This document shows positions 1,746 to 22,800 of a DNA stretch of 22,800 nucleotides, piece by piece (the first letter of the stretch is position 1; every line of letters starts with the position of its first letter). Location of the stretch: the IMG/VR virus record IMGVR_UViG_3300006990_000178, positions 1 to 22,800 of that record; one strand, 5' to 3'. The notes beneath the pieces are model-generated. The model was not told the origin of the DNA. It saw nothing but the letters and a program-made list of their open reading frames with translations, and did no database searches. This DNA is from a virus. The position numbers and the translations under genes were made by a program.

Positions 1746-1762
1746 TATTAGCTATACTAATA
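1746..1762. promoter_or_regulatory. Palindromic motif copy 1 (TATTAGCTATACTAATA)
   Basis: Six-base arms TATTAG and CTAATA flank a 5-base spacer. It lies between the primase-helicase stop and the nuclease gene, ending 25 bases before the ATG at 1788. It contains TATACT (1753-1758), preceded by TTGCGG (1731-1736) at 16-base spacing, so it may overlap a sigma70-type promoter. The same motif recurs at 3741, 8602 and 15935. Its function as operator or promoter is inferred. Confidence 0.65.
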
Positions 1763-3740: not shown

Positions 3741-3757
3741 TATTAGCTGTGCTAATA
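3741..3757. promoter_or_regulatory. Palindromic motif copy 2 (TATTAGCTGTGCTAATA)
   Basis: This is the best copy: the arms extend to 8 bases (AATATTAG / CTAATATT, 3739-3759). It sits in the short gap after the GP88-like gene and ends 29 bases before the helicase ATG at 3787. TTGCAA (3729-3734) and TAATAT (3753-3758) at 18-base spacing form a possible sigma70 promoter that the palindrome would overlap, as expected for an operator. Inference from repetition and placement. Confidence 0.7.
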
Positions 3758-6207: not shown

Positions 6208-6633
6208 ATGAACGAGCACGGATTCGTAAGGTCCGTGCATCGTCAGTTATCTCCTGACGTTTTTGTCTGGAAGATTAACGACAAGTATGCGGGCGGTGTG
6301 CCAGATGCGTTTTACGCTGGCCCTGCCCGCTGTTTATTCGTTGAGTACAAGTACGTAAAGCTACCTAAGCGAGACACAACGCTTGTCAAAACAAGCCTGT
6401 CTGAACAACAAAAGCTTTGGTTGGACAGGATGTTAGCTATGGACAAGCAGGTAGCTCTAGTTATAGGATCAGTATTAGGAAACATAATAATTGATAAGGA
6501 CTGGGACTCCCCAATCCCGACAGAACTATTTAGACAGCGCGCTATGTCTACGAAAGCTGTTGCTCAGTGGATATCAGCGTTCTGTTTGGAAAAATGCCAT
6601 GACTACGAAGAAGGATTCTTCCGTGGCTGCTAA
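6208..6633 (+). CDS. VRR-NUC-like PD-(D/E)XK endonuclease
   Basis: This 141-residue protein carries GVPDAFY (D33) followed by CLFVEYKYV (E46, K48), the PD...ExK signature of VRR-NUC and related small nucleases. The Q in SEQQKLWLDRM fits the helix that follows in this family. Such proteins cut branched or nicked DNA, and in phages they are often placed in recombination or resolvase roles. Start: ATG 6208 lies 3 bases after the previous stop (another ATG at 6204 is in a different frame). Its 3' end overlaps the XRE regulator by 35 bases. The residues after ~100 are not part of the core fold and have no recognised function. Confidence 0.78.
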   Translation: MNEHGFVRSVHRQLSPDVFVWKINDKYAGGVPDAFYAGPARCLFVEYKYVKLPKRDTTLVKTSLSEQQKLWLDRMLAMDKQVALVIGSVLGNIIIDKDWDSPIPTELFRQRAMSTKAVAQWISAFCLEKCHDYEEGFFRGC

Positions 6634-6961
6634 TAACCTGAGAAAAATTTGGGACTTAAGAAAGTCCGAAATAGGCGTCACTCAAACCGAAGCAGCCAAG
6701 AAGCTAGGTTGGACACAGGGCGCACTCGCTCAATACCTAAACAACATCACAGATCTTAACCCGCCTGCAGTTATCAAGCTGGCAAATTTTCTAGGGGTAG
6801 ATCCTCGAGAAATTGACCCCAGCGCTAACCTTGATGACTACCCTCAGTACCTCAGCTTACCTACCGGTGCTCGGTCAAAAATTACAATAGACCTATCACG
6901 TAAATGGAAAGCAACTGTGCACGACAACGGGTCAATCACGATTACACCAAGCAAAAAATAG
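6599..6961 (+). CDS. XRE/Cro-CI family transcriptional regulator (120 aa)
   Basis: The frame is open upstream, but ATG 6599 is preferred, with GGA about 8-9 bases before it. Residues ~27-72 form a typical XRE helix-turn-helix: VTQTEAAKKLGWTQGALAQYL, then LNPPAVIKLANFLGVDPREI. The C-terminal ~45 residues form a small beta segment (SKITIDLSRKWKATVHDNGS) and lack a LexA-type peptidase domain, so RecA-driven self-cleavage is not expected. It is encoded co-directionally between the nuclease and the attP/integrase region, not divergently as in lambda. It is the obvious candidate for the lysogeny switch and for binding the TATTAG palindromes; this is inference. Confidence 0.85.
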   Translation: MTTKKDSSVAANNLRKIWDLRKSEIGVTQTEAAKKLGWTQGALAQYLNNITDLNPPAVIKLANFLGVDPREIDPSANLDDYPQYLSLPTGARSKITIDLSRKWKATVHDNGSITITPSKK

Positions 6962-7000: not shown

Positions 7001-7040
7001 TAACGTGTACTTAGCACACTACTAAAGTGGACTAACGTGT
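7001..7040 (+). repeat. Direct repeats TAACGTGT, possible integrase arm sites
   Basis: TAACGTGT occurs at 7001-7008 and 7033-7040, 32 bases apart (about three helical turns). Each copy is preceded by a related CTAAA...GTG stretch, so the true repeat is about 20 bases and imperfect. Between them lies TTAGCACACTACTAA (7011-7025), a degenerate relative of the TATTAG palindrome. Lying just left of the attP-like core, these fit arm-type integrase or excisionase sites, or operators for int. Confidence 0.5.
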
Positions 7041-7164: not shown

Positions 7165-8214
7165 TTGGCCACTATAATAAATAGAGACGGTAAGTTCTAC
7201 GTCCGCGTTCGCAAAGCAAACTTCAAACCCGAAAACCGCACCTTCGACACACGTACCGCAGCCAAACAATGGGCGCTTCAAACAGAAGCAGCTATGGCCA
7301 ATGGATCGTGGGTCTCGGACCGTGAAGCACGTATCACGAATCTTGATTCATTATTTCGCCGGTACATCGCCGAAATTCACGGGGCAAAGCCATTCGGCAA
7401 AAGTAAACTCGCAACAGTAAGAAGCACGGCACGAAGAGTCGGACACTTGCGTCTTTCAGATCTGTCTCCCGCCTTTGTTTTATCCTATGCAAAACAGCGT
7501 GCCAACGAGATCGCCCCCTCTACCCTGAACCAAGAACTAACCTACTTCGCGCAAGCCATCGATGTAGCACGGACCTTGTGGAACGCTCCACTAAAAGACA
7601 ACCCTGTGCGCGCAGCAATCGGCGTCTTATCTCAGGTAGATGTAGTACAAGGCAGTAGAAAACGTAACAGGAGACCCACGGACCACGAACTACAAACCCT
7701 GCTTAACCTAGCCAAAGGCAGTTGGATCAGGCCCATGATCGAGATAGCTGTCGAAACGGGGTTACGAGAGTCAGAAATTCACGCACTCAAATGGTCAGAC
7801 GTGGACTTTGACCGTGGTACGTTGCTTATTCGAGACCGAAAAAACCCTAAGCAAAAGCTCGGAAACGACCAGCTGATACCGCTTTTACCGGTGTCGAGAG
7901 AGGCGCTCCTACGTGAAAAGCAGCAAAGTAAGCAGGGTGGTAGGGTGTTCGAGGACGTTCTCCGCGCCGCCAGTATTAGCGATAAATTTGCCAAACTGAG
8001 AAAGAAGGCCGAGATCCAAGATCTACGATTTCACGACCTCCGACACGAAGCAATTAGCCGAATGTTCGAAAAAGGAATGACTATTCCAGAGGTCGCGGCT
8101 ATCAGCGGGCACAAAACGTGGACCAGCCTAAAGCGTTATACGCAGCTAAGTCCTAGATCTCTGTCGACTGCGTTCGAAAAGCAGCCTGCATCTGAGAAAC
8201 CACCGCAGTTGTAG
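7165..8214 (+). CDS. int: Tyrosine recombinase (phage integrase)
   Basis: Phage integrase of the tyrosine recombinase family. Counting from TTG 7165 (349 residues), the catalytic set is R201 (ETGLRESEIHALKW), a Lys in the RKNPKQK hairpin, H290 and R293 (FHDLRH), H316 (SGHKTW) and Y325 (LKRYTQL). An N-terminal arm-binding segment (ATIINRDGKFYVRVRK) and a SAM-like core-binding domain precede the catalytic domain. The frame is open to a GTG at 7057, but that start has no ribosome site, would translate through the attP core and adds a non-family leader. TTG 7165 has AGAGGG 4 bases before it and matches the usual 'MATI..RDGK' start. Its 3' end overlaps the opposing excisionase-like gene by 62 bases. 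Confidence 0.93.
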   Translation: MATIINRDGKFYVRVRKANFKPENRTFDTRTAAKQWALQTEAAMANGSWVSDREARITNLDSLFRRYIAEIHGAKPFGKSKLATVRSTARRVGHLRLSDLSPAFVLSYAKQRANEIAPSTLNQELTYFAQAIDVARTLWNAPLKDNPVRAAIGVLSQVDVVQGSRKRNRRPTDHELQTLLNLAKGSWIRPMIEIAVETGLRESEIHALKWSDVDFDRGTLLIRDRKNPKQKLGNDQLIPLLPVSREALLREKQQSKQGGRVFEDVLRAASISDKFAKLRKKAEIQDLRFHDLRHEAISRMFEKGMTIPEVAAISGHKTWTSLKRYTQLSPRSLSTAFEKQPASEKPPQL

Positions 8215-8368
8215 GGAACAAATATTTCTTGCCCCTTTTAACGTACGGAAGGCCCACTTTGTCGGCATACAATTGATTGTAAAGCGTTGTTTTTTTGATC
8301 TTTAGTACTTCAGCCAGCTCACCAACGTCCATGAAAGGGCCATATTTTTCGAGCATCCATTCAGTCAT
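8153..8368 (-). CDS. AlpA/MerR-like helix-turn-helix protein, excisionase candidate
   Basis: A 71-residue DNA-binding protein with a winged-helix core: MDVGELAEVLKIKKTTLYNQLY, then GLPYVKRGKKYLFPTTAV, the layout of HTH_17/AlpA/Xis proteins. I choose ATG 8368 because GAGGAG lies about 7 bases upstream; an in-frame TTG at 8374 has no such support. It overlaps the DUF3310 stop by 8 bases and the integrase 3' end by 62 bases on the opposite strand. Small proteins of this type next to a tyrosine integrase usually bend attachment-site DNA and steer it toward excision, or regulate int. The excisionase role is inferred from position and fold. Confidence 0.75.
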   Translation of the reverse strand: MTEWMLEKYGPFMDVGELAEVLKIKKTTLYNQLYADKVGLPYVKRGKKYLFPTTAVVSQMQAAFRTQSTEI

Positions 8369-8579
8369 TGGCAAGCTCCTCTACTAGTCTATCCAAATAC
8401 CAGCGAGCTTTGCGTAGATCTTCGACTGGCCTCCCCTTGTATGACATACGCCAGACATACTTTTCTACGTTGCCTTTGAGGTAACCGATGAATTGTTCAG
8501 AAGACATAGACGCTTTAATTGCATCTATGCATTCAATGTCGCCAGTCTTATAGTGCGGAGGGTTGTTTACAGCATCCAT
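8361..8579 (-). CDS. DUF3310 family phage protein
   Basis: This 72-residue protein has the DUF3310 pattern: NNPPHYKTGDIECIDAI, then FIGYLKGNVEKYVWRM, then DLRKARWYLDRL. The family is widespread in phages and is sometimes labelled 'nucleotide kinase', although no kinase loop is visible here and the function is not established. An AGGA ribosome site lies about 9 bases before the ATG. Palindrome copy 3 ends 22 bases upstream, so this gene may begin its own unit with the excisionase candidate. Finding an early-type gene on the late strand is a little unusual. Confidence 0.88.
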   Translation of the reverse strand: MDAVNNPPHYKTGDIECIDAIKASMSSEQFIGYLKGNVEKYVWRMSYKGRPVEDLRKARWYLDRLVEELAND

Positions 8580-8601
8580 GTATTGTCATCCTGACATTGC
8601 C

Positions 8602-8618
8602 TATTAGCCGTACTAATT
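8602..8618. promoter_or_regulatory. Palindromic motif copy 3 (TATTAGCCGTACTAATT)
   Basis: Arms ATTAG/CTAAT flank CCGTA. It lies 22 bases upstream of the DUF3310 ATG on the - strand and overlaps the end of the 23-residue lysine-rich ORF. On the - strand a TATAAT hexamer covers 8621-8616, overlapping the palindrome; I see no good -35 at standard spacing. It would control the DUF3310/excisionase pair. Confidence 0.62.
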
Positions 8619-8684
8619 ATACTTCTTTTTCTTCTTCTTACTACCTTTTGGCTTCTGATTTATGCAGGGTTGTCCCTTATGCAT
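8613..8684 (-). CDS. Very small lysine-rich ORF (23 aa)
   Basis: An ATG on the - strand at 8684 begins MHKGQPC and the ORF ends GSKKKKKKYN before a TAG at 8613. AGGGAG sits 7 bases upstream, right after the stop of the 8698-9048 gene, so the start has a better ribosome site than many longer genes here. Tiny Lys-rich proteins at the end of a structural block are common in marine phages, although I know no role. The one Cys and the poly-Lys tail suggest DNA or membrane contact. Its stop codon lies inside palindrome copy 3. Confidence 0.55.
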   Translation of the reverse strand: MHKGQPCINQKPKGSKKKKKKYN

Positions 8685-8697
8685 CACTTTTCTCCCT

Positions 8698-9048
8698 TTA
8701 CTCTGGTTTTGGGTTAGCCTGTTTAACCGCTAGTCTGTGCGCATAGAACGCGCCGGTTTGGTCAAGCGTCCCTGCGACAATGTCATGGAAGATCATGTCT
8801 AGCTGATCTTCTAAAGCAGCGTACTGGTTCTTTCGCTTCTGATCCCACTGTAGGTCTGGACTGCCCTCAACCACACCAATAACTGTTTGGATGTCTTCTA
8901 CAAAAACAAAACGTCTAACCTGTGTTCTGGGGTTTTCTATGTCTCCGCTATCGACATAGGAATACCAGCCTTCGCCCTCCCCTTTCAGCCCTTGAGGGCC
9001 AAAAATAATATCCTCAACGTCAGCGTCCCACTTAACGTACAGTTGCAT
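8698..9048 (-). CDS. Hypothetical protein after the fibre gene (116 aa)
   Basis: The ATG overlaps the fibre stop codon (TAATG at 9050-9046), so the two are coupled. The 116-residue sequence starts MQLYVKWDADVEDIIFGPQGLKG with WYSYVDSG and NPRTQVRR blocks, then a helical second half (QYAALEDQLDMIFHDI). There is no signal peptide or membrane span. I do not recognise a named family. Position directly after a fibre suggests a fibre-assembly chaperone or a small capping protein, but the sequence alone does not show this. Confidence 0.75.
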   Translation of the reverse strand: MQLYVKWDADVEDIIFGPQGLKGEGEGWYSYVDSGDIENPRTQVRRFVFVEDIQTVIGVVEGSPDLQWDQKRKNQYAALEDQLDMIFHDIVAGTLDQTGAFYAHRLAVKQANPKPE

Positions 9049-12000
9049 TATCTAGCCCCCAACATGAACCCGGATATCTCATACAAATAATCAGCAGCGG
9101 TGCTATTATCGTTGTCCGTAATCCCACTAGACCCAGTTCGAGTCACTTCCACTTTCATATCCACCGTCCCCGTAGTCTTATTCGACAAAGACCCGCTAAT
9201 AGCAAACTGGGCGTAGAGATTTGTGTTTGCTTTAAACCTAGTCTCTCCAACAAGCTGCCAGCTACTGCTATTACCAACGCTTATTGTGTCGCTTGTTGTA
9301 AAAGCGCCTCCAGATCCTGACGCAAGGCTGTATTGCACAGTAGTCCGATTAGTAGAGCTGCTGTACGATACCGAAGTAGCTGAATGCTGTTTGCTTGTAG
9401 TACTAACAAGCACACTCCCAGTGGCTACATTAGAGGTAATATCTCCAGAAAAGTTAAGGTAGCCCAAGCCGTAATAGCCTGTCGCAGTCACAGGTTGACC
9501 AAGAGAGGTTCCCGTGCCACCCGCATTGTCTTTCATGTACATCTGAAAACGGTATGTTTTATTCGCCGTAGAGTCATACCAGCCAGTAACACTGGCAAAC
9601 GCTTTATGACCATTAGTCGCATGAGATGTAGCTGGCAGCTGTTGCGACGTCACTTGCACAGTCCCCCCGCCAGTGGCCGTATTTCCTTTTATAGTTACGA
9701 ACGAAGTAGACCTAAACGGGTTAAGAACAGCGACATCACCCACGAGCTTATTAGCATAAACAGTAGTACCGGACATCACAGTCGCACTAATACTGCCAGA
9801 TGTTATCTGGTTCGCTTCGATAGCGTTTACCTGAAGTGCGCCAGTGTTTGGGTTAGACGTAAGCGTCGTGCTGTCGATGTTTAAACGATTAGTGTCTATC
9901 GTGCCCGCAGTAATCTTGTCAGCAGATAAGTTGGCAATCTTCGCGTTGTCGATCGCAGCGTCACCAATCTTGGCATTGGTTATCGTGCCGTTCTTAATAA
10001 AACCATCAGCGATGTACACACCAGCAGGTACAGTCTCGCCGTTAATTACCTGCTGACTAGTAATAACGCTAAACGGAACAGTAGGATTGCCAGTGTCACT
10101 GGCACTACCTAACAACGCAAAACGGTCAGCGTTTACAATAAATTCACTAACAATGTTCCCCGCTGCTGTAGTCGTAGACGCCAGACCAAAACCAGCTACA
10201 GCTCCGTTTAGGTCAACCTTTACGGTGTACTGCGCTTCCAGATCCTCACCATCTGCCTTGGTATAGAAATTCTGCTGAACCGCCGCCGTAGTCGCGTAAT
10301 CGCCAAGCGTAGACGTGGACACCAAGTCCGTCGTAGCCGAGCTAATCGCCGAGTTCATGTCAGTTGTTGTCGAATAATCGGTAGTCAGCGTTGCAGTAGT
10401 AACGTAGGCGTTAAGAGCGTTGGTCTGGTCAGTATCAGTAACGTAGTCATCCAGCGCTGTATTAAGCGCCGTAGTAGAGACCAGCGTTTGCGTCGCATTA
10501 CTTATCGCCGTGTCAGCTTCCGACCTTGTGTAGTAGTTCGTAGTAAGGTCCGATGTACTTGTGTAATCACCAAGCGCTGTAGATAAGCCGCTAGTAGAGA
10601 CAAGGTTCTGTGTCGCTACGCTGATCGCACTATTCGTCTCTGTCTCGGTCAGATAGTTATTAGTCAGCGTACTGGTATTTACATAATCATCTAGCTCATC
10701 AGAGAGATCCGTAGTTGAAACCAGACTTTGAGTCGCTGTGCTAATTGCACTGTCTGTTTGTGTCTCTGTAAGGTAGTTGTTAGTTAGGTGGGAAGACGTA
10801 ACGTAGTCACCCAACTCATCAGACAAGTCAGTCGTCGAAACTAGACTTTGCGTCGCCTGTGAGATCGCTTGGGTAGTTGCTGTCGACGTCAGATAATTGT
10901 TAGTCAGGTTAGCGTTAGTCGCATAGTCTGAAAGCTCGGTCGCCAAACCAGTGCTCGACACAAGGTTCTGTGTCGCCGAGCTAATCGCACTCTCTGTATC
11001 AGTTTCAGTCAGATAATTCGTAGTCAAATACGATGTCGTTGGGTAGTTACCCAGCGTAGTGTTCAGGTCTGTAGTCGACACCAAACTCTGCGTTGCGTTG
11101 GTAATCGCAGTGTCTGCTTCGCTGCTGGTGTAATAGTTAGTCGACAGCGTTGAGTTAGTAACGTAGCTGCCTAGCGCATTTGTTAGGTTAGTGCTCGATA
11201 CTAGGTCTTGCGTTGCTGTACTAATCGCGCTGTCCGCCGCAGTACGAGTGTAGTAGTTGTTCGTAAGCGTCGCAGTCGTCGCGTAGTCATCCAGCGTCGT
11301 GTCCAGATCGCTGTCCGTTACGTAATCTACCAGCTCATCTGCAAGCGACGAAGTGGACACTAAGCTCTGTGTTGCCGAGCTAATCGCAGCATCAGCTTCA
11401 GTAATCGTGTAGTAACTGTTGGTTAGCGTAGAGTTCTGAACATAGGGGTTCAGCGCCGTCGAAAGGTCTGTAGTCGACACAAGACTCTGCGTGGCGCTAC
11501 TAATCGCGCTATCCGCTTCTGTGATTGTGTAGTAATTGGTCGTCAACGTGCTGTTAGTGACATAACCAGACAGCGTCGTATTAGACACAAGGTTCTGAGT
11601 TGCCTGCGATATTGCAGAGTCGGCCTCTGAACTCGTGTAGTAATTGTTTGTAAGCGTAGCTGTCGTAACGTACGGTGAAAGCGCTGACGTAAGGTCAGAT
11701 GTAGCCACAAGGCTCTGAGTAGCTGTGCTAATCGCGCTATCCGCTTCTGTGATTGTGTAGTAGTCGTTTGTAAGCGTTGCGTTAGTTACGTAGTTGTCTA
11801 ACGTCGTGTTCGATACAAGGCTCTGAGTAGCTGTGCTAATCGCACTGTTAGTTTCTGTTGCAGTCAGATAGTCATTTGTTAGCGTTGCGGTCGTTGCATA
11901 GTCGCTCAGCTCAGTAGTCAGGTCTGTGTTTGACACAAGGCTCTGCGTAGCAGATGAAATCGCGCTATCAGCCTGAGTCTTTGTATAGTGGTTTGTCGTC

Positions 12001-13745
12001 AGCGTTGCAGTCGTCGCATAACTACCCAGAGTCGTGGTCAGGTCTGAGTCCAGCACGTAATCGTCAAGCGTGGATGACGATACAAGATTCGTGGTGGCCT
12101 GCGATATTGCGCTGTTAGTACCAGTCTCAGTCAGATAGTTGCTGGTTAAGTGGGCTGACGTCACGTAGTCGTCAAGGTCAGTAGTAGACGCCAGACTGCT
12201 TGTTGCCGTACTTATCGCATTATTTGTATCTGTCGCGGTCAGGTAGTCATTCGTCAACGTCGCTGTTGTCGCGTAGTCACCCAACTCATCGTCTAACTCG
12301 GTCGTTGATACAAGCGACTCAGTAGCCGTGCTAATCGCCGAGTTCATAGCGGCAGTAGTTGAATAGTTCGTAGTAAGCGTGCTGTTCGTTACGTAATCGC
12401 CCAAATCAGCAGTCGAAGCCAGCCCTGTTATCGCAGTACTGATGGCGGAGTTCATATCCGATGTTGTGGAATAGCTAGTCAACAAGGTAGAACGAGTAGC
12501 AACAAGACCTGTTGTTGAGTCGTTTACAGTGCTTTGTAACCCCGCAATAGCCTGAGCAGCAGCAGAAGAGGACGTTGCGCTCACCGTATTTAAAGACGTG
12601 ATTGACGCAGAGTTTGCTGACACCACATCCGCGAGACTGTCGTAGTCCCCAATCAACTCCCAGTAAGTAGTGTTGGTAGGGAGATTACCCGACGTACTTT
12701 GCTTCGCTCTGTACAGGCTATCGCTGTATGTAACCAAGTCTCCAGTCGCGTAAGAGGTAGAGCCGTCGTAAGCAGACACACCAACAATGTCGTTGATCTG
12801 ACTCTGCAAGGTGTTGGCCGAGTTCGTAATAGCTGTAGCACGGGCTGAAGCTTCGTTCGATATAGCAGTAGCACGGTCTGACGCCTCGGCATTAACAGCG
12901 CTTGTAATTGCTAACCCTCGATTAGTCACCTCAGTTGCTATCGAGGATGATATCGCAGAGTTACGAGCCTCGACTTCATCATCTATAGCATCAGTAATCG
13001 CTGTAGCACGGGCCGCCGCTTCGTCCTGTATAGCAGTAGCGCGAGCGTTGGCCTCTGCTGCAACTTGCGCTGCCACCGAACCAGCTACTGTCGCTGGCGA
13101 GTCAATTAGATCTATGCGGGTAGTGAGAGCGTTCGCAAGCTCAGACTCTGTAATAGCCCCCTCTATGATCTCAAGGATGTGCTCTACGTCTGTAGCCGTG
13201 GCTATTTCTAGACCAGCTGTAGCGTGGTACGGCCCCGGCTCTTCGTTTATGTTTACGTGCCGAAGCCAATAGTACCGAGTAAGTCCTGCGCCAATTGGGT
13301 CTACAAAAGATATACCAGAACTAATGCCTACAAACTGCGCGTCGCCAATCGTGTCGGCGTCAAAGCGCCAAATCTCAGTAAATGAATGCCCACGGTATGT
13401 CGGCAAGTCCCAATAAATCTGGGCAACAGCATAGCCACCAGCACCAGTTACGCCCGTAGGCGCAGTAGGTGTCTCTACATCTCCAGAATTGCCAGTTGAT
13501 GGCGGAAGAAAATCAGTGCTAGGCGTGTTCGGATCGAAAGGCCGGTTGGCTAAATCAACGGCAAGACCTGTGTCAATAAGCTCACGAAGGGTAATAGCAC
13601 GATCACGAACATCGCCCCTTCTTCCCAGTCTGATCTCAAGTGCCTCAGAAATGCTTTCAAGGTATCTCCTTAACTGTGGTGACACATCCGCCGGGGGTTT
13701 CGGAAAACCCGGAACCTTAGTCGGATTATTAGTGCGTACAGTCAT
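9048..13745 (-). CDS. Large tail fibre, lambda gpJ-like core (DUF1983-like) with repeat shaft
   Basis: This 1565-residue protein has, in order: a short N-terminal anchor (LRRYLESISEALEIRLGRRGDVRDRAITLRELID); a fibronectin-III-like segment at about 92-183; an Ala-rich coiled stretch with repeated ARATAI (228-310); a small carbohydrate-binding-like unit at about 325-366 (YDGSTSYATGDLVTYSDSLYRAK); a shaft of about 18 repeats (425-1165); a gpJ/DUF1983-like block (QYTVKVDLNGAVAGFGL...FIVNADRFALL); a 'KIGDAAIDNAKIANLSADKITAGTI' hinge; and a Ser/Thr/Gly-rich beta tip. By family this is a tail-tip or fibre protein that contacts the host, and the tip is the likely receptor-binding part. Its start overlaps the previous stop (ATGA at 13745-13742). 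The repeat number may vary between relatives. Confidence 0.85.
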   Translation of the reverse strand: MTVRTNNPTKVPGFPKPPADVSPQLRRYLESISEALEIRLGRRGDVRDRAITLRELIDTGLAVDLANRPFDPNTPSTDFLPPSTGNSGDVETPTAPTGVTGAGGYAVAQIYWDLPTYRGHSFTEIWRFDADTIGDAQFVGISSGISFVDPIGAGLTRYYWLRHVNINEEPGPYHATAGLEIATATDVEHILEIIEGAITESELANALTTRIDLIDSPATVAGSVAAQVAAEANARATAIQDEAAARATAITDAIDDEVEARNSAISSSIATEVTNRGLAITSAVNAEASDRATAISNEASARATAITNSANTLQSQINDIVGVSAYDGSTSYATGDLVTYSDSLYRAKQSTSGNLPTNTTYWELIGDYDSLADVVSANSASITSLNTVSATSSSAAAQAIAGLQSTVNDSTTGLVATRSTLLTSYSTTSDMNSAISTAITGLASTADLGDYVTNSTLTTNYSTTAAMNSAISTATESLVSTTELDDELGDYATTATLTNDYLTATDTNNAISTATSSLASTTDLDDYVTSAHLTSNYLTETGTNSAISQATTNLVSSSTLDDYVLDSDLTTTLGSYATTATLTTNHYTKTQADSAISSATQSLVSNTDLTTELSDYATTATLTNDYLTATETNSAISTATQSLVSNTTLDNYVTNATLTNDYYTITEADSAISTATQSLVATSDLTSALSPYVTTATLTNNYYTSSEADSAISQATQNLVSNTTLSGYVTNSTLTTNYYTITEADSAISSATQSLVSTTDLSTALNPYVQNSTLTNSYYTITEADAAISSATQSLVSTSSLADELVDYVTDSDLDTTLDDYATTATLTNNYYTRTAADSAISTATQDLVSSTNLTNALGSYVTNSTLSTNYYTSSEADTAITNATQSLVSTTDLNTTLGNYPTTSYLTTNYLTETDTESAISSATQNLVSSTGLATELSDYATNANLTNNYLTSTATTQAISQATQSLVSTTDLSDELGDYVTSSHLTNNYLTETQTDSAISTATQSLVSTTDLSDELDDYVNTSTLTNNYLTETETNSAISVATQNLVSTSGLSTALGDYTSTSDLTTNYYTRSEADTAISNATQTLVSTTALNTALDDYVTDTDQTNALNAYVTTATLTTDYSTTTDMNSAISSATTDLVSTSTLGDYATTAAVQQNFYTKADGEDLEAQYTVKVDLNGAVAGFGLASTTTAAGNIVSEFIVNADRFALLGSASDTGNPTVPFSVITSQQVINGETVPAGVYIADGFIKNGTITNAKIGDAAIDNAKIANLSADKITAGTIDTNRLNIDSTTLTSNPNTGALQVNAIEANQITSGSISATVMSGTTVYANKLVGDVAVLNPFRSTSFVTIKGNTATGGGTVQVTSQQLPATSHATNGHKAFASVTGWYDSTANKTYRFQMYMKDNAGGTGTSLGQPVTATGYYGLGYLNFSGDITSNVATGSVLVSTTSKQHSATSVSYSSSTNRTTVQYSLASGSGGAFTTSDTISVGNSSSWQLVGETRFKANTNLYAQFAISGSLSNKTTGTVDMKVEVTRTGSSGITDNDNSTAADYLYEISGFMLGAR
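10250..12480 (-). repeat. About 18 tandem coding repeats in the gpJ-like fibre shaft
   Basis: I count about 18 units of the form [Y-x-T-x(3)-x-D/N]-S-A-I-S-x-A-T-x-x-L-V-S followed by L-x(n)-Y-V-T-x-x-T-L-T. Basic units are 36 residues (108 bases); many have four extra residues (40 residues), and a few are longer where a second D-Y-V-T-D-S-D-L-T-T-L linker is inserted. The four-residue step suggests coil-like register changes. At DNA level the units are similar but not identical, so they are old or diversified. Confidence 0.8.
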
Positions 13746-15934: not shown

Positions 15935-15951
15935 TATTAGCTGTGCTAATT
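15935..15951. promoter_or_regulatory. Palindromic motif copy 4 (TATTAGCTGTGCTAATT)
   Basis: Core identical to copy 2 over 16 bases. It lies in the only sizeable gap of the late block (15895-15961). On the - strand TTGCAA (15958-15953) and TAAAAT (15936-15931) with 16 bases between form a promoter-like pair that the palindrome spans. The next - strand start is the ATG at 15894. Confidence 0.65.
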
Positions 15952-18197: not shown

Positions 18198-21100
18198 TTA
18201 GTTTGATTCAAGTGCGGCTATTCTAGCCTCAAGTTCTTGGATTGTTGCCACAAGTAGCGGCACAAGTTTGGATTGGTCAATGCCTTGGTATACAGGGTTA
18301 CCGTCGCTATCAACCTCGTTGTGTGTTCCTGTGGTTGCTTCTGGCACAACAGTTTGCACCTCGTGCGCCAAGAAACCATCAACAGTCGTATCAGCATCAG
18401 CAATGAAGTTAAATTGCTTAGGTGCTAACTGCTTAAGTCTTTCGGTAGCGCCTGTCATAGCTACTACATTTTCTTTTAGACGGTGGTCAGATGTTGTGTT
18501 GAAAGAAGCGCTAGAACCATTTGATGTAATGCTCCCTATGTTGGCTGATGAAGGTCCGACTAAAAAATAATGAAGGTAACGAGTGCCTGATGCCCCTTCA
18601 TTACTGGCAGTGAAGGCTTGGTGATCAGCATTGCTAGTACTGCTAACTACACCAGAATGACCTTGGTAACAGGTTGTTCCCTGATTGAAGTAAGCTCTAC
18701 CAGCAGAATCAACGCGTAATCTAGGATTACCGTCACCATCTGACAAGACGATGTTGTTGTTTGCGGCGCGGATGTCGAGGCCGTCTTGGTTGCCGCCGTA
18801 GCGGCCGAGGATGGTGTTCTTCGTTCCAGTGGTCATGAGATGACCAGCCCGTGATCCAACGGCAGTGTTGTCAATACCCGTAGCAAATTCTAAAGCATCA
18901 TTACCAATCGCCACGATACCGTTTTGGTTTGTAAACCCACGTCCAGCAGTACGACCAATAATTGTGTTTCCGCCACCGGTACTAAGTCCAGTACCAGCAT
19001 AGGCACCTATGATTGTGTTAGAGCTTCCTGTTGTAATGTCAGCGCCAGCGTTATGCCCAAAAGCAGTAACTTCAACCGCGCTTGTTAGATTCGCTAAAGC
19101 GCTAGTGCCTAATGCGGCGTTTCTATGGCCCGTAGTAATGTCTATGCCAGAGTTATACCCGATAGCAACATTGTCCTCGCCGCTTGATATTTCAAGCAAT
19201 GCGTTCTTTCCCATAGCGATATTGTTACTACCGCTTGTAATTGACGCCATTGTGTTTTCACCAACAGCTACGTTCCGTGCACCTGAACTTCCTCCTGACC
19301 CATACATAGAACGTCGGCCAATAGCGGTGTTTGAAGCGCCAGTGACGTTACGCAGTGCTTCATAGCCAACAGCCGTGTTTTCTGTTGTGGTGGTTGACGC
19401 AAAGCCGGCAAAGTGACCTACAAAAGTATGAGACGATCCTGTAGTGACCTGACTACCTGCGCTTTTACCGATAAACACGTTGCCAGATGACGTTGTTTGA
19501 GCGGTTCCCGCATCGCAACCAATAGCTACGTTGTTTGCCCCAGACGTAAGAGCGTCAAAAGCATTACGGCCTATTGCAACGTTTGAGTTTCCTGTGGCCA
19601 CCTGTAGTGCCGCAAAGCCAATACCTACGTTTTCCGATCCCGTCGCGTTAGTTGCAAGTACGTTATACCCCAAAGCAACGTTCTGATAGCCTGTGGTGTT
19701 TAACTCTAATGCGCTTATACCTACAGCCGTGTTGTAACTCCCAGTCGTATTAGACTGCATTGCTCTACCGCCAAACGCGGCGTTTTCTGTACCCGTAGTT
19801 GTGTTATATCCAGCGGTATACCCAATGAATGTTGAATGTTGGTTTCCTGTGCCGACAAAACTGTATCCAGCACCATAACCAACAAACGTTAATCTTGTAC
19901 CAGAGGTATTGCTATAACCAGCCTGATAACCAACAGCCGTGTTGTTGTTGGCGGTGGTGTTGAAACGTAGAGAGGCATCGCCAATAGCAGTGTTATACGA
20001 ACCAGTCGTATTTGCCGCCATAGACACGTTACCCATAACGGTATTGCTAACCCCTGTCGTGTTGGTATTTAAGGCTTCGTTGCCTACGGCAGTGTTAGGG
20101 CCAGCAGTTGTGTTTTTGCCGGAAAGGTAGCCAACAAACACCTGACCTGTACCAGTTGCGTTTGCATACCCCGCCTGATAACCCACAGCCGTGTTGTTGG
20201 GGCCTGTGGTATTTGCTTGTAGTGCGGAAGTTCCTATCGCAGTGTTATAAGAGCCGGTACTGTTGTACAGCGAATACTTACCAACAGCGGTGTTGTAATA
20301 TCCTGTTCCAGAAAAACCAGAGGAAAAGCCGACATAAGTGTTATCTGCACCGACAACATTTGATTGCCCAGCCTGATAACCAACAGCCGTGTTATTTGAA
20401 GCATCTACGTTGTCATTAAGGGCGTACATCCCTACTGCGACGTTGTAATTTCCTTGGGCATTTGAAGACAGAGCACTTCTGCCTACAGCAGTATTTCTAA
20501 CACCCGATGTGTTCGTGTATAGCGCGTTGACACCGACACCTGTGTTATATGAACCGGTGGTATTACTGTAACCAGCTTGCTGTCCTAAATAAGTAATTTC
20601 AACGCCCGTAGTGTTGCTAGACCCAGCCAGATTACCAACAGCAGTGTTGTAGGAGGCGGTGGTGTTAGCATCAAGAGCTAGAGCGCCTACTGCGACGTTG
20701 TTAGTGCCTGTGGTGTTTGCATACAAAGAGCCGTAACCAAGCGCCGTATTGCTGTTAGCGGTGGTGTTGCTTGCCAAAGCACCTACACCAACAGCAGTAC
20801 CATAGCTACCCGTTGTGTTAAATCTCATGGCGGGATTAAGAACGCCGGAGTGCGGCCCACCTACTGCAACGTTCGCTACGCCGGTAGTCGTTGCATACAA
20901 GGTTGTCTGACCAACAGCCGTGTTACTTCCAGCCGTTGAGCTGTATCCTGCTGACGCACCAATAAACGTGTTTACATTTCCGGTTACGTTACTAAGTCCT
21001 GCATAAGCGCCAAGGTAGACGTTGTTGTTTCCCGTTGTGGTATTGTATCCAGCTTGATAGCCAAACGCTGTATTTGGCGAGCCAGTAGTTAGACTGAAAA

Positions 21101-22800
21101 GAGACTGTTGCCCTACTGAAGTTGTCTGACTTGCTGTCGTAATCGCAGAACTACTCAGGAAACCAACGCCGACGTTACCTGCACCGGAGGTAAGGTTGAC
21201 CATAACGCCAGTGCCAATAGCGATGTTGGCGCTTCCGGTTACCGAAGACTGCATGGGGGCGTTAGCGCTTCCCGACCACAGACCACCAATAGCGATGTTA
21301 CCGTTCCCCGTGTTAATGCCTTTACCGGCTTCTGCGCCCATCGTTACGTTGCCGGTGCCAGTGGTAACGCTGTATCCAGCCTGATAACCAACAGCAGTGT
21401 TGTTGGAGGCGGTGGTGTTTGCGCCTAGCGCGGCTCCGCCTAAAGCTACGTTGCGGTTACCTGTAGTGTTTGCGTCTAAAGAAGACGTGCCAAACGCCGC
21501 GTTGCCTGTTCCTGTAGTGTTTGCAGTAAGTGCAAAATAGCCAAAAGCATCATTAAAAGACGCTGTAGTGTTTGAATCTAATGCTCGATAACCAAAGGCC
21601 GTGAGATATTCACCTGACGTGTTTGCCTGAATAGCGTTGTAACCTGCACCAGTGTTATTACTTCCGGTATTGTTTTCCAGAACCTGATAACCCAGAGCCG
21701 TATTACCTGCGCCAGTCACGTTAGCTTTCAACGCATCTCTACCGAGAGCAGTATTGCCAGTTGCTGTAGTTTGTGAGTACATGGCAAATTTACCAATACC
21801 CACGTTCGACGAGCCAGTTGTGAGCGCTTGACCTGCCCTGTCGCCAATTAAAACGTTATCGGATCCGGTAGTCGCGGCGGCACCAGCTTGGTATCCGACA
21901 CCGACATTGCCACCAGAAGTAGTAAGCGACGAGAATGAACCGTAGCCAACCGCTGTGCTTCGACCGCCTGTAGTCACCACTTGAAGTGTTGCGTAGCCGA
22001 TAGCCGTATTTTCTGTTGCAGTTGTATTGCTGGATAAAGCGTTGGCACCAACAGCGGTGTTCCGACTTGCAGTTGAGACGGCAAGTGCGCTTTTTCCTAA
22101 AGCTACATTATTAATTCCAGTGGTAAGGGCGGACAAGACTCCATAGCCAAGACCGGTATTATTTGAACCAGTTGTTACCGCATCCATTGCGTAAGGGCCG
22201 ACAGCAATGTTGGCGTCACCAAATGTTAAAGCGGAAAGTGAGTTGTTACCAATTGCAACGTTATTATTTCCTCCGCTTCCTACGCTATTTAATGCACCAG
22301 AACCTAAAGCTGAGTTTGCCGTACCCGTAGGATAGTTACCATTCAGCTTAATTGTGCCGTTTACGTCTAGACCGTCAGTTACAGCAGTTCCCGTTACGTC
22401 GATGCCTGTGGAGGTTGTGGCTAGTTTGGCTGAACCGCTATGAAATAATGTGTTGGCACCACCAGAAGTCAAATTAATTAAATTTTGTGAGCCTGCGGCG
22501 TTATAAATGTTTACATTGTCACCAAAAATTTGAAGGTCGCCTGCTCCACTTTCTTTGATGTTGCTGTGCGTACCATCATGATAAATCTGTAGGTCTGAGC
22601 CAGCACCGAAGACAGCCTTGGAGTTGTCTGCAAACTTCAGGTCTTCATCACTAGCCAGCCATTGGAGTTTTGCAGTAGTGCCAGTGTCTTCGTAGAAGCT
22701 AATGTCGCCGCCGGTTCCTATTCTTAAGCGCTCTTTTAAATCGGTGTAAATCTGTACATTTGCAACTTCGTTGTTACCAATATAAAGCGCATTAGCTGCT
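18198..22800 (-). CDS. Giant tail fibre/adhesin: YadA-like repeats with S74 chaperone tail (5' truncated)
   Basis: The frame is open from the window's right edge (first complete codon at 22799): 1533 residues are visible and the gene starts outside. The visible N-terminal part has fibre elements such as SDLQIYHDGTHSNIKESGAGDLQI. Then come about 69 repeats of roughly 17 residues, consensus NTAVGYxALxxNTTGxx, the pattern of the YadA/Hia-type left-handed beta-roll. The C-terminus has TSDHRLKENVVAMTGATERLKQL, HEVQTVVPEATTG and QSKLVPLLVATIQELEARIAALE: a peptidase S74 / endosialidase-type intramolecular chaperone with the Ser-Asp...Lys site, expected to cleave itself off after trimer folding. An in-frame TTG at 22472 is not the true start. 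Role: host receptor binding at the virion surface. Confidence 0.9.
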   Translation of the reverse strand, partial: AANALYIGNNEVANVQIYTDLKERLRIGTGGDISFYEDTGTTAKLQWLASDEDLKFADNSKAVFGAGSDLQIYHDGTHSNIKESGAGDLQIFGDNVNIYNAAGSQNLINLTSGGANTLFHSGSAKLATTSTGIDVTGTAVTDGLDVNGTIKLNGNYPTGTANSALGSGALNSVGSGGNNNVAIGNNSLSALTFGDANIAVGPYAMDAVTTGSNNTGLGYGVLSALTTGINNVALGKSALAVSTASRNTAVGANALSSNTTATENTAIGYATLQVVTTGGRSTAVGYGSFSSLTTSGGNVGVGYQAGAAATTGSDNVLIGDRAGQALTTGSSNVGIGKFAMYSQTTATGNTALGRDALKANVTGAGNTALGYQVLENNTGSNNTGAGYNAIQANTSGEYLTAFGYRALDSNTTASFNDAFGYFALTANTTGTGNAAFGTSSLDANTTGNRNVALGGAALGANTTASNNTAVGYQAGYSVTTGTGNVTMGAEAGKGINTGNGNIAIGGLWSGSANAPMQSSVTGSANIAIGTGVMVNLTSGAGNVGVGFLSSSAITTASQTTSVGQQSLFSLTTGSPNTAFGYQAGYNTTTGNNNVYLGAYAGLSNVTGNVNTFIGASAGYSSTAGSNTAVGQTTLYATTTGVANVAVGGPHSGVLNPAMRFNTTGSYGTAVGVGALASNTTANSNTALGYGSLYANTTGTNNVAVGALALDANTTASYNTAVGNLAGSSNTTGVEITYLGQQAGYSNTTGSYNTGVGVNALYTNTSGVRNTAVGRSALSSNAQGNYNVAVGMYALNDNVDASNNTAVGYQAGQSNVVGADNTYVGFSSGFSGTGYYNTAVGKYSLYNSTGSYNTAIGTSALQANTTGPNNTAVGYQAGYANATGTGQVFVGYLSGKNTTAGPNTAVGNEALNTNTTGVSNTVMGNVSMAANTTGSYNTAIGDASLRFNTTANNNTAVGYQAGYSNTSGTRLTFVGYGAGYSFVGTGNQHSTFIGYTAGYNTTTGTENAAFGGRAMQSNTTGSYNTAVGISALELNTTGYQNVALGYNVLATNATGSENVGIGFAALQVATGNSNVAIGRNAFDALTSGANNVAIGCDAGTAQTTSSGNVFIGKSAGSQVTTGSSHTFVGHFAGFASTTTTENTAVGYEALRNVTGASNTAIGRRSMYGSGGSSGARNVAVGENTMASITSGSNNIAMGKNALLEISSGEDNVAIGYNSGIDITTGHRNAALGTSALANLTSAVEVTAFGHNAGADITTGSSNTIIGAYAGTGLSTGGGNTIIGRTAGRGFTNQNGIVAIGNDALEFATGIDNTAVGSRAGHLMTTGTKNTILGRYGGNQDGLDIRAANNNIVLSDGDGNPRLRVDSAGRAYFNQGTTCYQGHSGVVSSTSNADHQAFTASNEGASGTRYLHYFLVGPSSANIGSITSNGSSASFNTTSDHRLKENVVAMTGATERLKQLAPKQFNFIADADTTVDGFLAHEVQTVVPEATTGTHNEVDSDGNPVYQGIDQSKLVPLLVATIQELEARIAALESN
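18745..22330 (-). repeat. About 69 tandem 51-base coding repeats (YadA-like beta-roll)
   Basis: Units of 17 residues, mostly [N/L/V]-T/V-A-V/I-G-x-x-A/S-L-x-x-N-T-T-G-x-x. Hand count is about 69. Most have length 16-17; two are about 24 residues long. DNA identity is modest except around the word coding for NTAVGYQAG, where a 26-base stretch recurs at 19921, 20173, 20371 and 21379 with one mismatch each against the first copy. Confidence 0.85.

Follow-up and report, generated by a model that had tools for sequence, protein, structure and literature searches.

The 23-codon open reading frame (ORF) on the (-) strand at positions 8613–8684 of the window, a 22.8-kb virus record, is a real, selected protein-coding gene. 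Its product, MHKGQPCINQKPKGSKKKKKKYN, belongs to a family of 21–36 residue phage polycations in which M-H-x-G, one to four further residues, a Cys, one or two residues and an Asn are followed by a Lys/Arg-rich tail, which usually holds or finishes with a (K/N)GY-like motif. Judged from sequence, the product is most likely a disordered polycation that would act late in infection by binding nucleic acid or some other polyanion.

A selected coding gene below gene-calling limits

The gene is too short for ordinary gene finders. The original prediction had proposed a 23-residue Lys-rich gene here with a well-placed AGGGAG ribosome site, and translation of the (-) strand, MHKGQPCINQKPKGSKKKKKKYN*, matched it exactly. 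The AGGGAG abuts the stop codon (8700–8698) of the preceding 116-residue late gene, and the ATG follows the end of that gene by 13 nt. The spacing is also a family property, as the ribosome site ends 6–8 nt before the ATG in 71 of 77 distinct nucleotide sequences. A GTG immediately 5´ of the ATG provides an alternative start codon; since the close relatives L007 and L011 have GCA where the window has GTG, the ATG is the conserved start.

Table 1 Features of the window near the tiny gene and at the operator copies
Feature	Position	Strand	Details
Tiny gene, 23 residues, MHKGQPCINQKPKGSKKKKKKYN	8613..8684	(-)	ATG 8684-8682, TAG 8615-8613; translation and family conservation
Ribosome-binding site AGGGAG	8692..8697	(-)	7 nt 5´ of the tiny-gene ATG; sequence
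TATAAT, Tyr and Asn codons of the tiny gene	8616..8621	(-)	Possible -10 of a putative DUF3310-gene promoter
Operator-like 15-bp palindrome ATTAG-N5-CTAAT	8603..8617		Over the tiny-gene stop, upstream of the DUF3310 gene
Operator copy	1747..1761		In the gap ahead of the gene at 1788
Operator copy	3742..3756		In the gap ahead of a helicase-like gene
Operator copy	15936..15950		Between TTGCAA (-35) and TAAAAT (-10), 16-nt spacer, before (-) late genes
Late gene, 116 residues, upstream of the tiny gene	8698..9048	(-)	Relatives phrog_9114 and phrog_1787, function not known
DUF3310 gene (PF11753), downstream of the tiny gene	8361..8579	(-)	E 2.3e-21
HTH_17 protein, excisionase-like	8153..8374	(-)	
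HTH_3 repressor-like protein, candidate operator binder	6491..6961	(+)	True start probably internal, near 6600

Family members were collected from IMG/VR with sequence patterns. Pattern A, which fixes only the ribosome site and the N-terminal motif (the first ten residues), matched 63 stretches, and in 61 of these the sequence continues as a closed ORF of 18–45 residues with a tail of at least 30% Lys/Arg; of the other two, one runs off the stored sequence and one is unrelated. A pattern built on the window-type motif gave 21 matches, all of which continue as a short, closed, Lys/Arg-rich ORF. Pattern B specifies neither the start codon nor the ribosome site, and an ATG directly precedes the motif in each of the 39 stretches that it matched. 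The set of 77 nucleotide sequences (66 peptides) was gathered with a pattern that required Cys, Asn and at least 25% Lys/Arg, so that the invariance of the Cys and Asn in this set was imposed by the search. Identical sequences were counted once in this set and in the selection analysis below, and some of the loci are overlapping pieces of one contig.

The substitution pattern shows purifying selection on the peptide. Across 24 pairs of equal-length sequences, which are disjoint but drawn from related phages, changes numbered 127.3 at 420.2 synonymous sites and 56.7 at 1790.8 non-synonymous sites, giving a pN/pS of 0.10; the window sequence (as in L002) differs from that of L004 by five synonymous changes and no non-synonymous ones. 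Conservation in related phages had been put forward as a check on the prediction, and a start or frame not conserved in close relatives as grounds for rejecting it. The start, ribosome site, N-terminal motif and Lys-rich tail are instead kept well beyond close relatives, and synonymous changes dominate. Moreover, an ATG ORF of 18–45 residues that has a ribosome site and a Lys content of 35% or more occurs once in the window and in none of 100 shuffled versions. That the ORF arose by chance within A-rich operator DNA, as its short length and the purine-rich DNA might suggest, is scarcely credible and is refuted by the conservation, the selection, the start codon and ribosome site, and the shuffling results.

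The family thus has fewer than 50 codons, a ribosome site and purifying selection in several phages, as is generally expected of a phage small-protein family. Conserved phage ORFs below the usual length cut-offs are the subject of Fremin, Bhatt and Kyrpides 2022, as cited in PMC11323111. The tiny gene is alike in being a short conserved ORF below such cut-offs and differs from catalogued families in that no family model matches it, the comparison with Fremin et al. being one of general kind. Conserved, unannotated phage microproteins are already known as a kind, and the present family is undescribed in the libraries searched. The gene illustrates that a 69-nt coding region under gene-calling limits can be strongly selected and a near-core gene of a phage group.

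Spread and composition of the family

Relatives of a 567-residue late protein (80 loci) have the tiny ORF downstream. The peptides are near-identical within the window clade, and more distant lineages carry peptides such as MHKGKQCRLNAPTKPIKMEKKKPSKGYSAPKKKS and MHKGKGKQCVLNQQDKPKKKKAKKKKRNYGY. Among the 52 loci that span both the 567-residue gene and a downstream landmark, 41 contain the tiny gene, four (L017, L045, L048 and L066) a divergent version and seven none, which indicates that it is dispensable in at least some relatives. Variants without Cys or His exist (L017 and L048); the N-terminal motif is therefore not absolutely required. Net charge across the family is +7 to +13, Trp is absent, and acidic and hydrophobic residues make up about 2% and 18%, respectively. 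AlphaFold predicts an extended chain with no secondary structure (pTM 0.15), a model unusable for fold searches.

A 28-sequence family alignment gave no convincing match in Pfam, PHROGs or NCBIfam (best E 0.096, for single members), and no PDB chain matched the family. In tblastn searches with four family peptides no credible match was found in the phage collection, one run giving three weak matches in tail-fibre genes (E of at least 2). Peptides of this kind are probably masked by the low-complexity filter, and the null result is therefore not evidence of absence. Stretches from ten named phages, four of them with a 567-residue-type protein at about 34% identity and six of them marine, contained no full-motif member and one chance match to the N-terminal motif (L175). 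The family was not found in a literature search, which is not proof of its being unpublished. In the absence of a Pfam, PHROGs or NCBIfam model, the motif is a reliable search handle for the family.

A scan of 84,980 bacterial and archaeal species genomes matched eight stretches, one of which (L143) holds a family member and seven of which do not; on this evidence the family belongs to phages. The L143 member lies at 2621–2713 on the reverse strand of an 8-kb contig, probably a phage contig, in a marine metagenome bin assigned to Candidatus Neomarinimicrobiota. From these sequence surveys, many uncultured aquatic phages carry the tiny gene as a conserved late gene.

The gene end overlaps a putative operator in the window clade

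The window contains four 15-mers of the form ATTAG-N5-CTAAT, all in gaps before gene starts (Table 1). Its 13-bp core, TTAG-N5-CTAA, occurs five times compared to 0.31 expected from 300 first-order shuffles. The core at 19085 was dropped as an operator copy because it is within a coding region and has no flanking A/T, and a TTAG-N7-CTAA at 7011 was dropped for its wrong spacing. Operator copies mostly have Y/R at their inner edges. In a survey of 15 chosen contigs the 15-mer was present in 11, and the reversed pattern gave no match in any of the 15; the 59-kb contig of one relative (L008) has ten copies. The site at 8603–8617 is multi-copy, symmetric, intergenic and close to a possible promoter, features anticipated for a repressor operator. 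At 15936 the palindrome is located between putative -35 and -10 elements, which is the usual layout for promoter repression, and the same arrangement is present in a relative.

The HTH_3 protein is a candidate binder of these sites. At least five sites were found in eight of ten contigs with an HTH_3 homologue versus none of five without (Fisher test, p 0.007, for 15 contigs chosen as gene-order representatives rather than as a random sample, and with the five-site cut-off set after the counts were known). Three contigs without a homologue carry one, three and four sites, and two with a homologue, G009 and G013, have none. Other repressor sites that recur throughout a phage genome, mycobacteriophage stoperators among them, likewise consist of one short site in many copies. 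The present operator resembles stoperators in this dispersal, but it is symmetric, sometimes lies in or beside promoter elements and has a candidate binder only.

The tiny gene has its stop codon inside the palindrome at 8603–8617, which is the third of the four 15-mers and by its position fits the copy 3 of the original prediction. The overlap of gene and operator that it described is real but confined to the window clade, where it accounts for seven of the 77 distinct sequences; in one of the seven (L006) the operator lies just past the stop. In five of the seven, TAT-AAT-TAG encodes Tyr-Asn and the stop while also supplying a perfect -10 hexamer and the left arm of the operator; L005 has TAC-AAT-TAG. 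The predicted ending of six Lys followed by YN is likewise exact as a translation. Other lineages have different tails, however, so that YN is not part of the family motif but operator and -10 DNA read as codons. With gene end, possible -10 box and operator on the same bases, this locus would be a compact case of overlapping signals.

Genomic position and possible functions

Late genes in the window lie on the (-) strand, and an integrase gene and the repressor-like gene on the (+) strand. Two very long, repetitive tail-fibre-like genes, at 18198–22799 and 9048–13745, are also on the (-) strand; the former has many NTAVGYQAGY-type repeats, and its end shows what we take to be a resemblance to a self-cleaving intramolecular chaperone domain. 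In 109 charted stretches, among which identical sequences were not collapsed, the tiny gene is at the end of the late/lysis region. Its commonest direct upstream neighbours are small late genes (c16; 23 of the 109), followed by a lysozyme-type endolysin gene (c21, PF00959; 15 of the 109) and a tail assembly chaperone gene (c9, PF16778; 13 of the 109). The tiny gene is placed as the last, or among the last, of a predicted late operon, and its translation would begin at a strong ribosome site of its own.

Our preferred account of this family of polycations, held tentatively, is that the tail binds a polyanion late in infection, that the N-terminus docks or binds metal and that, in the window clade, the gene end was trimmed into an operator. 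The polyanion bound by the disordered Lys/Arg tail would most likely be phage DNA or host or phage RNA, and late in infection the tail might neutralise DNA, for instance during packaging or inside the head. The conserved, short N-terminus would dock on a partner protein or bind a metal. The 3´ end of the gene in the window clade would have been trimmed to stop inside a repressor operator and a possible -10 that govern the next genes. DNA neutralisation is our first choice of these actions, given a late, near-core gene whose product is almost purely cationic. Weighing against this account are the lack of a homologue of known function, the seven spanning loci that do without the gene and the variants without Cys or His. 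The more specific proposal, of a new microprotein family with an M-H-x-G-x-x-C-x-[LI]-N docking motif and an extended polycationic tail, serving in the virion as a DNA counter-ion or as a packaging peptide and encoded by a near-core late gene of a large group of uncultured aquatic phages, whose end in the window clade shares bases with a -10 and an operator, we regard as speculative.

The main rival, owing to an endolysin and spanin neighbourhood in some lineages, is an accessory role in lysis, whereby the polycation would be produced together with the lysis genes, leave through holin lesions, displace divalent cations from LPS and weaken the outer membrane. Its action would be similar to that of poly-lysine or, loosely, of disruptin, a cationic phage lysis peptide. 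Besides its place directly after the lysozyme-type endolysin gene, the tiny gene closes an operon in the L069 group in which an Rz-like spanin gene (c26; phrog_812) is also present, and it stays there with the lysis genes while the structural genes are on the opposite strand; in another lineage the gene just downstream of it encodes an M15-peptidase endolysin. The peptides resemble disruptin-type peptides in being small and cationic and in their late or lysis neighbourhood in these lineages, but differ from them in their low hydrophobic content, absence of Trp and lack of a predicted helix. Further, the L069 lineage already has its spanin-like gene in the same operon, and thus the spanin replacement expected of a disruptin-type peptide was not found there, no lysis gene was recognised in the window, and the conserved N-terminus is left unexplained. 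We consider lysis doubtful. A takeover of RNA or ribosomes, by a Lys-rich microprotein that resembles the tail of a ribosomal protein and would bind rRNA or mRNA late, is rather unlikely: the late position of the gene is consistent with it, as are the size and composition, which we take to resemble those of small ribosomal protein tails, but the ribosomal protein models in Pfam and NCBIfam and the PDB chains were unmatched.

The DNA around the stop codon could instead suggest a leader peptide or attenuator, as the window ORF ends within an operator that has a TATAAT, 33 nt short of the DUF3310 start, and translation of the Lys run might tune the DUF3310 operon. This is very improbable and is largely refuted by the gene orders, which leave no fixed regulated gene downstream. 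Downstream genes vary by lineage, and in the L069 group the tiny gene converges on tail genes and hence has no gene after it on the same strand; that neighbours change while the tiny gene stays argues against such a role. In addition, the amino acids are conserved while synonymous change is free, and the operator overlap is limited to the window clade. No Rfam element was found in 8400–8900. The small size of the product makes its function easy to test with a synthetic peptide.

Similar basic sequences in other phages

The cultured Methylophilales phage MEP401 (L178) has an unannotated ORF of 20–21 residues at 34065–34130 on the (-) strand, between annotated genes, which ends in KKKKPMKKGY. 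A ribosome site is present and the N-terminal motif is absent; the product is possibly an analogous polycation. DUF6321 (PF19846), a basic phage domain, has in common with the longer family members a KKPxKGYxKK stretch, which was required by the search pattern, and DUF6321 members differ in being larger proteins without the N-terminal motif. Common descent, at which the C-terminal pattern hinted, is unsupported, as the Pfam model was unmatched and hhalign gave a probability of 2.9%. Most of the loci L183–L231 encode DUF6321 (two members checked), with KKPFKGYNKK at the start of the domain and varied N-terminal parts attached.
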